64,000 nt of DNA from Thalassotalea hakodatensis. GTDB taxonomy: Bacteria > Pseudomonadota > Gammaproteobacteria > Enterobacterales > Alteromonadaceae. Where the stretch lies: contig NZ_AP027365.1 in the NCBI RefSeq assembly GCF_030295995.1, positions 1,736,001-1,800,000 on the forward strand, given 5' to 3'. Below are positions 4,664 to 8,086 of this stretch, in pieces (position 1 is the first letter of the stretch; each line of letters starts with the position of its first letter). Under the pieces are notes generated by a model, which searched no databases, was not told the origin of the DNA, and worked only from the letters and a program-made list of their open reading frames with translations. Position numbers and translations under genes: made by a program.

Positions 4664-5536
4664 TTATCTTAAAGAACTTCGCAGTTTCAGTTTAATTGGG
4701 TTATTAACTGACAGATCTTTTTTCTCTTGCTCATATTGCATCTGAGCTAACATAATCAATTCATCTAATAATTCATATTCTTGATCAAATGAGAGTATGA
4801 CTTCCAAAATCTGACAAGTATTAGTTATATCTTGATATATATCACTAAAGTAGACTTCATTAATCTTTAGCTTTCTTTTCAAACTATGAAGTGGATAATT
4901 TATGTCCTTAAAGCCTAGATATTTTCTTATATCAACAATAGGATAATGTGATGTTAGTAACAATTTTATTAAGTTGCTGTTATCTGAAACGTCATCTATT
5001 TTTATTGAATCAATGTATTTCTCCAGTTTTTTTAGATTTTGATGAGTTAATAGTAATCTATTGTTTAAATATTTAGTTGTGTCCTCATCAATTTCAAAAA
5101 TTCCGTCTCTTGAGCCTGGGAATAGCTGCTTGTGTAATTTACTTACGCTTAAAAAAGTTTCATTACACTTATTATTAGTTAGTAAGTTATTAAATTCTTC
5201 TAGATGCTTATAATAATTTGCAAATTTGTTCTGACTTTCGATACTTTTTATTTGTGCTATTGATATCTCAGATCTGTGTTGAGCAGCATAAATTGCACCA
5301 ATGGGAATTAGAAGAGATAGTATTCCAATAGGGAGCTTATAACTATCAATAAAAGTTTCGTAGCATTTTGCAGATATACATCCAACATAGTTTTCATTAA
5401 TAGTCACACCATAAGTAAGCACTATTGCAATAATTAAAATTATAGAAAATGTAAACCAAACTACTCCTAACTGAAAAAAGCTTTTGTTGGCTGAAAAGAA
5501 ACGATAATTTTTAAAACCTACCCAAAGTTTGTTCAC
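4664..5536 (-). CDS. Uncharacterised two-helix membrane protein with cytoplasmic helical domain
   Basis: 290 residues, family not recognised with confidence. Two hydrophobic segments are visible: about 22-44 (VVWFTFSIILIIAIVL) and about 67-86 (LPIGILSLLIPIGAIYAA). A cluster AAQHRSEISIAQ and then QNKFANYYKHLEEF follow, with a Lys/Leu-rich, probably helical domain of about 200 residues. The short loop between the helices holds two cysteines (GCISAKC). The topology suggests a membrane anchor with a cytosolic domain. The gene is visibly more AT-rich than sucCD and borders a repeat-rich island, so it may be accessory or acquired. A role as a membrane effector in phage defence is possible, but nothing here proves it. 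Confidence 0.75.
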   Translation of the reverse strand: MNKLWVGFKNYRFFSANKSFFQLGVVWFTFSIILIIAIVLTYGVTINENYVGCISAKCYETFIDSYKLPIGILSLLIPIGAIYAAQHRSEISIAQIKSIESQNKFANYYKHLEEFNNLLTNNKCNETFLSVSKLHKQLFPGSRDGIFEIDEDTTKYLNNRLLLTHQNLKKLEKYIDSIKIDDVSDNSNLIKLLLTSHYPIVDIRKYLGFKDINYPLHSLKRKLKINEVYFSDIYQDITNTCQILEVILSFDQEYELLDELIMLAQMQYEQEKKDLSVNNPIKLKLRSSLR

Positions 5537-5673
5537 TTAGCTTTTCCTTTTATTAATAGTAACCATAAGAAATATAACAGGAAAATTTTACGAAAGCATT
5601 TATAAAAGTAACAAACACCTTAAAGACAGATTATCTTCATAAATACTTTAGAATTTGGTTTTCTTTTCTAGTC

Positions 5674-6184
5674 ATATTGTCGCGGTGGCGACTGCACCCA
5701 AAGGGAGACTACCTCCGACCTCCCTTTGGAAACCCTCGGAGCTGCTGAAAAATGTATTCTTCATTCTCATCAATAGTCGAGCTAACGTTCAGATAGCACA
5801 TCCATGTGCTACTTCACTTTGCTGGCGTCCTGCCAGCAATAGCTGATATTGATTTTTTCATTCAGCATTTTTCAAAGCAGAATAATGCTTCGCTCTAGTT
5901 TGATGATTAATTTCGCTGTATCCCCAAATGGGATACGAATAAGAAACGAGCGTTGAATTCAACACCATTTCCCATCGAAGCGATTCAAATAGTATTTAGA
6001 TGAACGATTTAATCATTATCAGCATGGATGCTGATAACTGACGTGATACATGGATGTATCATCGTCAGGAATGGTCAATCGGCTAAATGCTATTTGATGT
6101 TTTCGCTGAGTTGGGCACCGAGGGAGTTGTTAGAGGGAAACGGTGTTATTTCCCTCTAACGTGCTGGGGCCACCGCCGCAATAT
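5674..6184. repeat. E element copy 1: about 511 bp multi-hairpin element with complementary ends
   Basis: The ends are near-complementary: ATATTGTCGCGGTGGC at 5674-5689 and GCCACCGCCGCAATAT at 6169-6184 (14 of 16 pair). Inside are a 10 bp stem at 5698-5707/5720-5729, a long-range stem CCCTCGG 5733-5739 / CCGAGGG 6118-6124, and a stem 5742-5754/5866-5880. That stem encloses hairpins at 5794-5811 (TAGCACAT arm) and 5821-5837. There is a hairpin at 5918-5936 and a 14 bp stem 5986-5999/6083-6096 enclosing hairpins at 6016-6037 and 6038-6068. A 12 bp hairpin lies at 6129-6160. No convincing ORF is present. It could be a structured RNA or a MITE-like element; transcription is unknown. Homology to the other copies starts upstream, at about 5640. 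Confidence 0.8.
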
Positions 6185-6278
6185 AGCTTGAATAGAGCAC
6201 CAATTATTGAAAGTATTTTTCTGTAAAGCTTCCTCTTTCTGTAAAAATACTTGTTAGTTTGGCTATTTAATTCTGATT

Positions 6279-6806
6279 ATATTGTGCGGCGGCGACTACG
6301 TCCAAAGGGAGGCTGCCTCCAGCCTCCCTTTGGAAACCCTAGGGCTGTGAACAAACGTGATTCTGAAATGAAGAAAAGTGTGTTTCGACGTAACAGCGCT
6401 GATGGCACATCCATGTGCCGACAGCGCATTGACTGGCATCCATGCCAGTAATACGTGAATATTTTTATTTATTTCAGCGTTTGTTCAAGCAGAGTTTTAT
6501 GCTCCGTTCTAGTCTGGTGATGATTTTGTTGTTTTAGGTTTTGTGATTATGAAAGCTAGCTATAGAAGTGAGTAGGGCGGATTTAACCAATTCCCATGTC
6601 AGCGGTTTGCTAAATGACTAGCAATGGTAGACCTCGACCCGAGACATGGATTTCGAGGGCTGCCGCGCGGAGGGACGAGCATTCGGCAGGTATCGAGATT
6701 TACGCTAGTTGTTTAACAAAGTATTCCGCTGTTTGGGCTCCGAGGGGGTTGCAAGGGGGAAACTGGTGTTATTTTCCCTTGCGTGCTGTCGGCACACCGA
6801 CAAATT
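6279..6806. repeat. E element copy 2
   Basis: Same architecture as copy 1, with diverged sequence. It starts ATATTGTGCGGCGGCGAC, then a perfect 15 bp stem (6301-6315 / 6320-6334) with a CCTC loop. GAACAAACG 6349-6357 pairs with CGTTTGTTC 6478-6486, and CTGAAAT 6363-6369 with ATTTCAG 6471-6477. Inside are an extended hairpin 6396-6427 (GCGCTG, GGCACAT arms) and ACTGGCAT 6432-6439 / ATGCCAGT 6442-6449. GCAAGGG 6751-6757 pairs with CCCTTGC 6776-6782, and TGTCGG with CCGACA at 6787-6802. Many stems differ in sequence from copy 1 yet still pair. The right end is less well matched than in copy 1. Confidence 0.75.
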
Positions 6807-6910
6807 AATGTTAATTAAAACACTTTTATTAAAAGAATTTCACCAGTTAACTTTAAAAGGGCATATAGTTTCAGGTTAAATACTTTATGGATTGGTTTTC
6901 TTTTCTGGTC

Positions 6911-7110
6911 ATATTGTCGCAGTGGCGACGGCACTCAAAGTGGGTTCACGCAAACCCTTTTTGAAAAATCTTGCGCTGCTTGCAATGCTTTTCTAAAATC
7001 ATAATCCTATGCTACTTAGCTTTGCTGGTGTTCTGCTAGCAATAGCTGATATTGATTATTCATTCAGCATTTTTCAAAGCAGATAAGTGCTTCGTTCTCA
7101 TTTCGTGTTT
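6911..7110. repeat. E element copy 3, left part
   Basis: Starts ATATTGTCGCAGTGGC and follows copy 1 through the first hairpin (degenerate: CAAAGTGGGTT/AAACCC), the GCTGCTT...AAAGCAG stem and the tail TTCAAAGCAGATAAGTGCTT. Homology also covers about 35 bases upstream (TTGGTTTTCTTTTCT). Similarity to copy 1 is lost near 7110. The matching right end appears at 8478-8542, so the peptide locus lies inside this copy. Between 7111 and 7472 I see only AT-rich sequence with no gene. Confidence 0.7.
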
Positions 7111-7472
7111 ACTTTTGTGTAATTGCTTTTATTTGTTATAGAAACGAGCAGTTAAGCTAAGCTATGGATGACAATTATTTCAACTTATTTTGTAAACCTC
7201 CTTCATATGAATAACCAAATGCTCTAAGTTTTATACCCACTTTTTGCTTTTAATAGTAGTAAGCTCAAAGGAGCTACCACACAATATATTTACTACATTT
7301 ATACAATCTTTTAAAGTTGATAAAAATCAAATAGTTATAGAGGCTTTTCTAAAACTCCTCTTTTATTAAAAGTTCATATATTAAATGTCTGCTAAATTTT
7401 CGATGAAGTATAACCCTGTTAAATGGATAACTATATTTCAATATATGAAAATTAATCGAAAAAGGATAAGTT

Positions 7473-7682
7473 ATGAAAGAGTTAACAAATAAGGAAGTTA
7501 AGCACGTAAACGGTGGTGTGAGTAAAATTGAAGTTATTAACTACCTAGGTGATGCATTAACTATTGGTGGTGGTATATTGGCGGGTGCTGCTTATACTGC
7601 TTCAGGTTTAGGTGTTGTAACCGTAGCTGTCGTGGGTTCTTATTACGCGGGGCAAGCTATTGGAGACTGGTTGTTTAATTGA
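7473..7682 (+). CDS. Double-glycine leader peptide, class II bacteriocin/microcin-like precursor
   Basis: A 69-residue precursor. The N-terminal MKELTNKEVKHVNGG fits the double-glycine leader rule: L at -12, E at -8, V at -7, V at -4 and GG at -2/-1. C39-peptidase ABC exporters normally cleave after GG. The predicted mature part of 54 residues is rich in Gly/Ala with small-residue spacing (IGGGILAGAAY, SYYAGQAIGDW), typical of membrane-inserting class II peptides. A Shine-Dalgarno-like AAAAGGATAAG precedes the ATG. A small two-helix protein follows at 7700, a usual immunity position. No C39 exporter is present in the window. Function is inferred from the leader and context. Confidence 0.7.
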   Translation: MKELTNKEVKHVNGGVSKIEVINYLGDALTIGGGILAGAAYTASGLGVVTVAVVGSYYAGQAIGDWLFN

Positions 7683-7699
7683 TACTTTAGGAGAAGGAT

Positions 7700-7888
7700 A
7701 TGAAAAAAGTATTAGCACTAAGTGTTATTCTGACTTTTTATAGTTTAATCATTCTTTATAGTATTTATGCTATTCCAACTGTTTTTGATAAGAGTAACTT
7801 GAAAGGCTTACTTTTAGTACTATTAGCAGGTGTTGCCTTGATAATTTGGACTAAAATTTCTTATCATATTTTAACGTCTAAAAGTTAA
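7700..7888 (+). CDS. Small two-helix membrane protein, probable immunity protein for the upstream peptide
   Basis: 62 residues, start supported by AGGAGAAGG just upstream and only 17 bases after the peptide gene stop, so the pair is probably one operon. Two hydrophobic helices are visible, about 5-25 (LALSVILTFYSLIILYSIYA) and about 37-55 (LLLVLLAGVALIIWTKIS), with positively charged ends. Small membrane proteins of this kind directly after class II bacteriocin genes are commonly immunity proteins. No family was recognised, so the role rests on position and size. A decayed copy of this gene and of the end of the peptide gene lies at 10514-10746. Confidence 0.6.
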   Translation: MKKVLALSVILTFYSLIILYSIYAIPTVFDKSNLKGLLLVLLAGVALIIWTKISYHILTSKS

Positions 7889-7972
7889 GGCTCCTAAAAA
7901 GAGTTTTAGCTTATTCTCATTATAAAGTTGGTGTTTAATCGTCAGTAGTAATGTTTTCACTTGTTCAAATCG

Positions 7973-8020
7973 TTAATGGGGTCAGGTACAACTTAAACCT
8001 AAATTGAACCTGACCCCATT
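7973..8020. repeat. REP-type inverted repeat (GGGGTCAGGTAC family), compact copy
   Basis: AATGGGGTCAGGT and ACCTGACCCCATT form a 13 bp stem around 20 bases. The same end sequences bound 10483-10789. GGGGTCAGGTA-type palindromes are common near REP-associated transposases in gammaproteobacteria (recalled, not checked). It may also act as a transcription stop for the peptide pair. Confidence 0.7.
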
Positions 8021-8086
8021 TATTCTTTGACATCAATGGTTTGTTTGATCAAAATTGCTAGGCTAAACAGGTACCTAAAATAATGG

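Follow-up and report, generated by a model that had tools for sequence, protein, structure and literature searches.

The repeated hairpins which follow the sucD gene of Thalassotalea hakodatensis are, as judged by sequence and score, the known RNA motif TwoAYGGAY and not an unknown RNA. They form an array in which the two arms of a full unit are inverted and stand back to back, and gene turnover beside this array is well supported by comparison of the site in related genomes. As far as our searches show, the back-to-back arrangement appears to be undescribed, as do its distribution and its position beside exchangeable slots. We propose, with the chances about evenly balanced, that TwoAYGGAY pairs are CsrA-binding modules which would bring the adjoining exchangeable slot under Csr/Gac control. 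The window is the whole stretch of 64,000 nucleotides that was analyzed, and positions refer to it.

The array in the window

Three tandem units are found at 5634-7140 (5634-6218, 6219-6871 and 6872 to about 7140). The borders were set by comparison with another genome of the same species (G001), in which unit 1 (92% identical) is fused directly to unit 3 and unit 2 is missing as a block. The first-pass annotation, made from the letters alone, had described two tandem copies of an element; the tandem array stands, but it has three units, the third being a left half only. After reversal the five arms (two in unit 1, two in unit 2 and a single one in unit 3) align, and they have their outer-end sequence in common. 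A full unit is therefore an inverted arm pair and not a single long structured RNA. The "~0.5 kb structured RNA" of the annotation has to be given up, since the described RNA (RF01731) is about 75-170 nt and there are two of them, facing away, in each full unit. The features are:

5634..6218, no strand: unit 1, back-to-back TwoAYGGAY arm pair (borders from G001 and the arm alignment)
5674..5692, no strand: left outer end of unit 1, ATATTGTCGCGGTGGCGAC, with an inverted counterpart at the right end; common to the arms
5698..5730, no strand: hairpin outside the left module of unit 1, CCAAAGGGAG...CTCCCTTTGG
5739..5867, minus strand: left arm of unit 1, TwoAYGGAY module, RF01731 49.1 bits (cut-off 43); loops CATCCATG at 5799-5806 and CGTCCTG at 5826-5832 (CAGGACG on the minus strand)
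5973..6111, plus strand: right arm of unit 1, TwoAYGGAY module, RF01731 41.6 bits (under the cut-off of 43), E 8.3e-5; loops CATGGATG at 6023-6030 and 6049-6056
6129..6160, no strand: hairpin outside the right module of unit 1, GTTAGAGGGAAA/TTTCCCTCTAAC, 12 bp perfect
6167..6186, no strand: right outer end of unit 1, GGGCCACCGCCGCAATATAG
6219..6871, no strand: unit 2, the block missing in G001
6342..6493, minus strand: left arm of unit 2, TwoAYGGAY module, RF01731 52.0 bits; loops CATCCATG at 6408-6415 and 6437-6444
6560..6806, plus strand: right arm of unit 2, aligning with the other arms, loop context decayed
6872..7140, minus strand: unit 3, consisting of a left arm with decayed loops; parts of unit 1 are 79-88% identical to it

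The predicted fold of unit 1 has an energy of -225.7 kcal/mol (z -11.7; none of 100 shuffles was equally good) and that of unit 2 an energy of -224.7 kcal/mol (z -7.7; none of 20 shuffles). Three stem changes between the copies, quoted in the annotation, are all present in the sequence with both partners changing together: GAAAAATG/CATTTTTC becomes GAACAAACG/CGTTTGTTC, TAGCACAT/ATGTGCTA becomes GGCACAT/ATGTGCC, and GTTAGAG/CTCTAAC becomes GCAAGGG/CCCTTGC. The CATCCATG or CATGGATG which it had seen at the apices is also there. ORFs of 63-66 aa within the units were not taken as genes; they sit on palindromes.

Adjoining unit 3, at 7473-7888, are two small ORFs (69 and 62 aa) for which a Pfam match was not found; the 69-aa ORF presumably carries a bacteriocin-like leader (KELTNKEVKHVNGG). 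At 7965-8030 a 31-nt inverted repeat surrounds GGGGTCAGG. This is a separate REP-like repeat, and a part of it (7975 onward) recurs at many sites in sibling genomes.

Measured by RF01731 score, 2 of the 5 arms, both of them left arms on the minus strand, lie above the cut-off, the third is just under it, and two are unmatched; for the right arm of unit 2 a match was not found up to E 5. Two AYGGAY-type loop hairpins are present in three of the five arms, and in the remaining two (the right arm of unit 2 and unit 3) the loops are decayed. Other low-threshold Rfam matches in the region were taken as chance. The element which the annotation had left without a name thus matches an already described one in its motif, but not as a composite. 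The discovery table of 2010 lists TwoAYGGAY as probably RNA and probably not cis-regulatory (PMC2864571), whereas Rfam types RF01731 as cis-regulatory; the spacing at the sucD site, given below, speaks for a leader position there. Binding of CsrA to TwoAYGGAY was proposed in 2014 from motif matches (PMC4333381). In the literature searched by name and topic we found no test of TwoAYGGAY function and no link to defence genes.

Fold, loops and the proposed CsrA reading

In a cross-clade alignment of 32 cores, with rows chosen for their stems, 13 of 16 pairs change on both sides, and the covariation score is 0.542, whereas shuffles give 0.155 and slid controls no more than 0.146. It should be noted that the percentage paired in this alignment (A2) is inflated because the rows were picked for stems of at least 5 bp; among the unselected pattern matches listed, at least three further pairs are found in 71 of 86.

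The 65 Psychromonas modules, which were found by a sequence profile and include tandem copies, tell the two strands apart. Over 52 core pairs there are 177 G-U cells vs 59 A-C cells on the AYGGAY strand, and the G-U-rich core columns outnumber the A-C-rich ones by 35 to 10 (sign test 2.5e-4, with relatedness ignored). This count excludes pair 119-124 at the loop edge and all pairs beyond the core, and it includes two AC-rich columns. The outer hairpin of the modules has no G-U excess (G-U 53 vs A-C 66). Read from these counts, selection favours the fold of the AYGGAY strand, and the fold is not merely a DNA cruciform, which would give equal numbers. The covariation and the excess of G-U over A-C both support what the annotation had held about a non-coding, structure-conserved element.

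A folded single DNA strand would give a G-U excess too. The excess would therefore also fit a DNA element, in which the arms, as long and imperfect inverted ends, would delimit the members of a non-autonomous, cargo-bearing mobile family moved in trans by an unlinked recombinase, perhaps on folded single strands, and in which the RNA fold is incidental. Arms inverted at both ends of cargo, outer ends which are inverted repeats (in Glaciecola L171 near-perfect over about 40 bp) and the occurrence of cargo-free, MITE-like pairs are in line with such an element. A transposase, however, would not need loops of the CsrA consensus.

These loops speak for reading the modules as CsrA-binding RNA. The sequence C-A(N)GGAY-G, which we take to be the CsrA SELEX consensus, fits 83 of the 85 GGA hairpin loops counted in the 65 Psychromonas modules. 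By a strict rule both hairpins are found in 29 modules, one in 27 and none in 9, and where both were counted (29/65) the GGA-to-GGA spacing is 29-31 nt. On the antisense strand the hairpin pair is found in none of the 65 modules. The csrA gene is present in all 12 genomes checked. Control by Rsm/Csr has been described for phage defence in Pseudomonas (PMC11888443), for CRISPR-Cas in Serratia, where RsmA binds cas mRNAs (PMC8450108), and for CRISPR in Marinomonas (PMC8523701). The strand-biased fold, the loop consensus, the presence of csrA and this literature together favour a CsrA-binding module in transcripts, and a CsrA-binding RNA is likely the best reading of the motif.

We saw no sign of a gene for a CsrB-like sRNA. 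Promoter-like sites around the element number 2, compared to 5.2 in shuffles, other promoter types lying outside the scan. Allowing for up to 3 mismatches, the GacA/UvrY box (TGTAAG-N6-CTTACA) is matched 29 times in the window where 41.6 would be expected, and none of the matches stands out; the match nearest to the element, at 5607-5624, has 3 mismatches.

Exchangeable slots and pair layout

The order sucD stop, gene slot, array is found in ten related genomes. The slots at this site contain:

Window, 4664..5536, minus strand: 290-aa membrane-type protein, PADLOC 2TM_IV 4.3e-6
G001, same species: FRG domain, PDC-S15 1.1e-53
G004: PDC-S42 5.8e-28
G003: HEPN 1.5e-4, below Pfam's cut-off
Colwellia L110: DUF3644, PDC-S19 1.5e-65
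L146: DUF2971, PDC-S31 1.5e-41
L153: DUF4062
L120: PEP-CTERM protein and a 225-aa protein
G010 and G151: proteins of 272 and 318 aa, PDB relative not found

The slot protein of the window has no Pfam match up to E 0.01, and a PDB relative was not found. Leaving out a 140-aa ORF of G004, the ten genomes have 11 mutually unrelated slot genes (BLASTP best cross match E 0.25), of which four are long matches to PADLOC candidate families, the "PDC" families being predicted candidates. Immediately behind the sucD stop, where a terminator-like hairpin lies, the window and G001 differ in sequence even though they are of one species. The Colwellia loci L125, L143, L168, L172, L175 and L180 lie elsewhere than sucD. 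In the fifth member of the genus (G002) the array was not seen, and repeated sucD 3' ends are found instead. The stretch after sucD in this genome (L101) has further partial copies of the sucD 3' end and terminator-like sequence, as if elements had repeatedly integrated there.

In nine of the ten genomes an arm facing the slot gene lies upstream of it on the same strand, with 200-301 nt from the module 3' end to the start of the gene (203 nt for the left arm of unit 1 in the window); G004 is the exception. Most slot genes point towards sucD, and the nine of ten is not independent of this preference.

Gene replacement beside the array at a fixed site would also be expected from passive homology anchors, that is old repeats at permissive sites which aid RecA exchange of their neighbours with no regulation involved. 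Tandem copies within a locus are up to 99% identical, and the presence or absence of unit 2 as a block between genomes of the same species agrees with this as well. Such anchors leave unexplained both the loop consensus with covarying stems over distant clades and the G-U excess confined to the core, and we regard them as a somewhat unlikely explanation.

In Psychromonas pairs of modules enclose hypervariable islets. Upstream of rluE-icd two Psychromonas genomes (Icd 95% identical) have the same flanks and modules and different cargo, the best cross match between the two sets having E 0.029. The contents of slots between outward-facing modules vary and include genes for PtuA and a PtuB-like protein (Septu), Shedu in full length, AbiH, KAP ATPases (PDC-S20, PDC-S49), an AriA-like AAA protein, and a GmrSD/NsnA protein whose partner weakly resembles SIR2; in Pseudoalteromonas Lamassu proteins and a type IV restriction enzyme lie near modules. 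Other slots have no defence gene: L036 holds an alkaline phosphatase, L120 the PEP-CTERM protein listed above and L060 an IS91-like element with a tyrosine recombinase. At 4169-9365 of L060, inside a Psychromonas islet, there are two copies of an element which has both a phage-integrase-family protein and an IS91-type Y2 transposase.

The excess of defence genes in slots is suggestive and was counted by PADLOC in two genomes (G142 and G114) as long matches, i.e., proteins whose best family is matched with a best stretch of at least 60% of the profile. There are six among 27 cargo proteins (Septu PtuA and PtuB-like, Shedu, AbiH, NsnA and PDC-S49) and none among 20 flanking proteins, giving a one-sided Fisher p of 0.028 under a rule set after the hits were seen. 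Of the cargo, 25 were scanned (six at E 0.01 and nineteen at 1e-5, two repeat copies of L060 proteins being left out), and the flank sample is 20 of 63 proteins. When every PADLOC hit at 1e-5 is counted regardless of its length, cargo shows no enrichment (7/25 cargo vs 6/20 flank). Inspected by eye, the six flank proteins with hits are ABC ATPases, an HtpG, a kinase and a methyltransferase; in two flanking ABC ATPases a lesser hit, to mad8, extends over 72% of the profile.

The back-to-back layout was counted with a model, R1, whose scores on the window arms hold by construction. An exact two-hairpin pattern scan of a species-genome collection gave at least 120 stretches, 80 of them given by name. 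In the 120 pattern loci listed, each picked by a single module, neighbours within 1 kb have the strand order -+ (back-to-back) 26, +- (facing each other) 5, ++ 22 and -- 18 times (-+ vs +- one-sided 9.6e-5); with only R1 hits of at least 40 nt the numbers are 25, 5, 18 and 17, and a hand-made subset of the first 80 of these listed loci has -+ 21, ++ 13, -- 5 and +- 5. The five +- neighbours among the listed loci come from four loci which are tandem arrays of -+ units like the window. Neighbours more than 1 kb apart, again among the 120 listed, have no bias (-+ 4, +- 3, ++ 5, -- 5).

In the loci that were fetched an ORF of at least 100 aa lies between -+ neighbours 18 times, ++ 10, -- 4 and +- 0, and no ORF lies between them 7, 16, 13 and 2 times, respectively. 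These ORFs are mechanical, and in L071 and L073 part of the ++ cargo is probably not genuine. The first 20 loci (19 scanned) were partly picked for showing pairs; less biased are the 120 listed pattern loci and G142 with G114, where all RF01731 matches were fetched and 11 -+ intervals hold ORFs of at least 120 aa. The pairs are met again and again among Gammaproteobacteria. Pairs 177-602 bp apart, start to start, are found in Pseudoxanthomonas, Rhodanobacter, Granulosicoccaceae, Gynuella and Glaciecola, and from this we infer that the pair is an old arrangement. In Glaciecola sp. KUL10 (L171, 4430-4980) a pair with near-perfect 40-bp terminal inverted repeats lies between flagellin-like genes, and the Pseudoxanthomonas pairs in L151 and L152 are near flagellar genes with a flgD-like ORF, all named by eye. 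Control of flagella by Csr is known.

Genes on the 5' side of fetched modules point into the module 32 times and away from it 34 times, and the gene on the 3' side is convergent with the module 50 of 74 times; neither leader nor tail is therefore general, and a general 3'-UTR or leader role is unsupported by gene orientation outside the sucD site. The convergent 3' neighbours might suggest that the pairs are bidirectional terminators or insulators at gene ends. The stretch 5400-7400 has four terminator-like sites, compared to 1.6 in shuffles (sd 1.3). Two of the four lie at the outer ends of units 2 and 3 (6787-6802 and 6942-6957), and the left modules of units 1 and 2 end without one. Against a terminator role, a strong T-run was not found after the outer hairpins of unit 1, termination does not need AYGGAY loops, and the facing arm at the sucD site is directed into the slot gene. 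Such a role is quite improbable.

At E 0.001 RF01731 is matched in at least 91 of 394 genomes of the order and at least 24 of 369 in a draw from the class, counts which are low because few candidates were scored per genome; nine genomes chosen for having RF01731, with all or nearly all candidates scored, have 1 to 29 matches each. Four siblings in the genus have no match at E 0.001 (0/4), and five stretches from three of them have none up to E 0.5. By blastn and model R1 arms are present in three of the four, and on this sequence comparison the sibling arms are diverged and not absent. Among the named pattern matches are Psychromonas, Colwellia, Pseudoalteromonas, Shewanella, Alteromonas and Glaciecola, further Pseudoxanthomonas, Rhodanobacter, Saccharospirillum and Granulosicoccaceae, and a few from outside the Gammaproteobacteria, e.g., an Oscillospiraceae MAG. 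This MAG, Pal332_bin15, has at least four loci with the TwoAYGGAY pattern (L123, L148, L159, L163).

The distribution bears on the DNA element described above, for which several observations are unfavourable. In the T. hakodatensis genome a second locus was not found, either with RF01731 at E 0.001 or by blastn of unit 1. The two-hairpin pattern has 0 matches in viral contigs. With unit 1 or a Psychromonas module as query, blastn found none in plasmid and phage records; with an Aeromonas module it hit a single record of the plasmid set, 4.9 Mb long and from Aeromonas caviae. Comparison of 50 proteins with Pfam gave only two recombinase-like finds, the IS91-like element of L060 and, in the L054 flank, a Y1 match below the cut-off. 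Recent transposition was sought in the identity of copies between loci and was not seen: such copies in one genome are at most about 94% identical, the overlap of L060 and L061 being excluded, which speaks against a recent burst. Of the properties of MITEs, terminal inverted repeats are present, and dispersed near-identical copies are not seen, with one locus here and at most about 94% identity between Psychromonas loci. Unit 2 is present or absent as a block between genomes of the same species, but within a tandem array. All in all we find a DNA element, such as the self-folding mobile DNA suggested in the annotation, unlikely.

Proposed role and known systems

The reading we prefer, CsrA-binding modules beside an exchangeable slot, would work as follows. 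Each outward arm presents two C-A(N)GGAY-G hairpins, a form which one CsrA (RsmA) dimer would presumably clamp. Since the two arms read outward on opposite strands, a transcript running out of the pair would carry a predicted CsrA-binding module whichever way it goes. The two settings differ. At the sucD site the slot gene is outside the pair and the module would be the leader of its transcript, while in Psychromonas the cargo is inside the pair and the module would be the tail of the cargo transcripts. In either setting the slot would be placed under Csr/Gac control. Transcription, CsrA binding and any regulatory effect are what we infer from the sequences, and the regulatory consequence is put forward as a hypothesis.

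A wider version, which we hold tentatively and consider unlikely as it stands, would make the pairs boundary elements of widespread exchangeable, immune-rich slots, whose border CsrA-binding RNA puts a captured gene at once under Csr/Gac danger control. If true, they would be a plug-in regulatory socket for horizontally acquired immunity. The Discussion of PMC11888443 raises the question whether immunity is under Csr/Rsm control in bacteria other than Pseudomonas and how recently acquired defence genes are brought under common control, and the position of TwoAYGGAY beside such slots bears on it. The hypervariable, often immune, slots give TwoAYGGAY a concrete setting, and the pairs could serve as a DNA handle for finding new defence candidates.

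TwoAYGGAY as published (RF01731, PMC2864571) has the same two AYGGAY-loop hairpins within a closing stem, and arms of the window exceed its curated cut-off; it is described as a single motif, whereas here it occurs as a back-to-back inverted pair, in tandem units and beside hypervariable slots.

The CsrA-sequestering sRNAs of the CsrB/RsmZ type are alike in having tandem ANGGA hairpin loops suited to CsrA dimers. They differ from the modules, which have two sites each, lie on opposite strands and reach 29 matches per genome, and for which a GacA box and a convincing promoter were not found.

MITEs and mobile insertion cassettes have inverted ends and optional cargo, and as here an own transposase is not seen; recent copies, however, are not seen here. 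In integron cassettes with attC a folded repeat likewise lies beside exchanged single genes, some of them for defence. The modules differ from attC in lying in both orientations at many chromosomal sites, and an integrase is found among their annotated neighbours only in L060.
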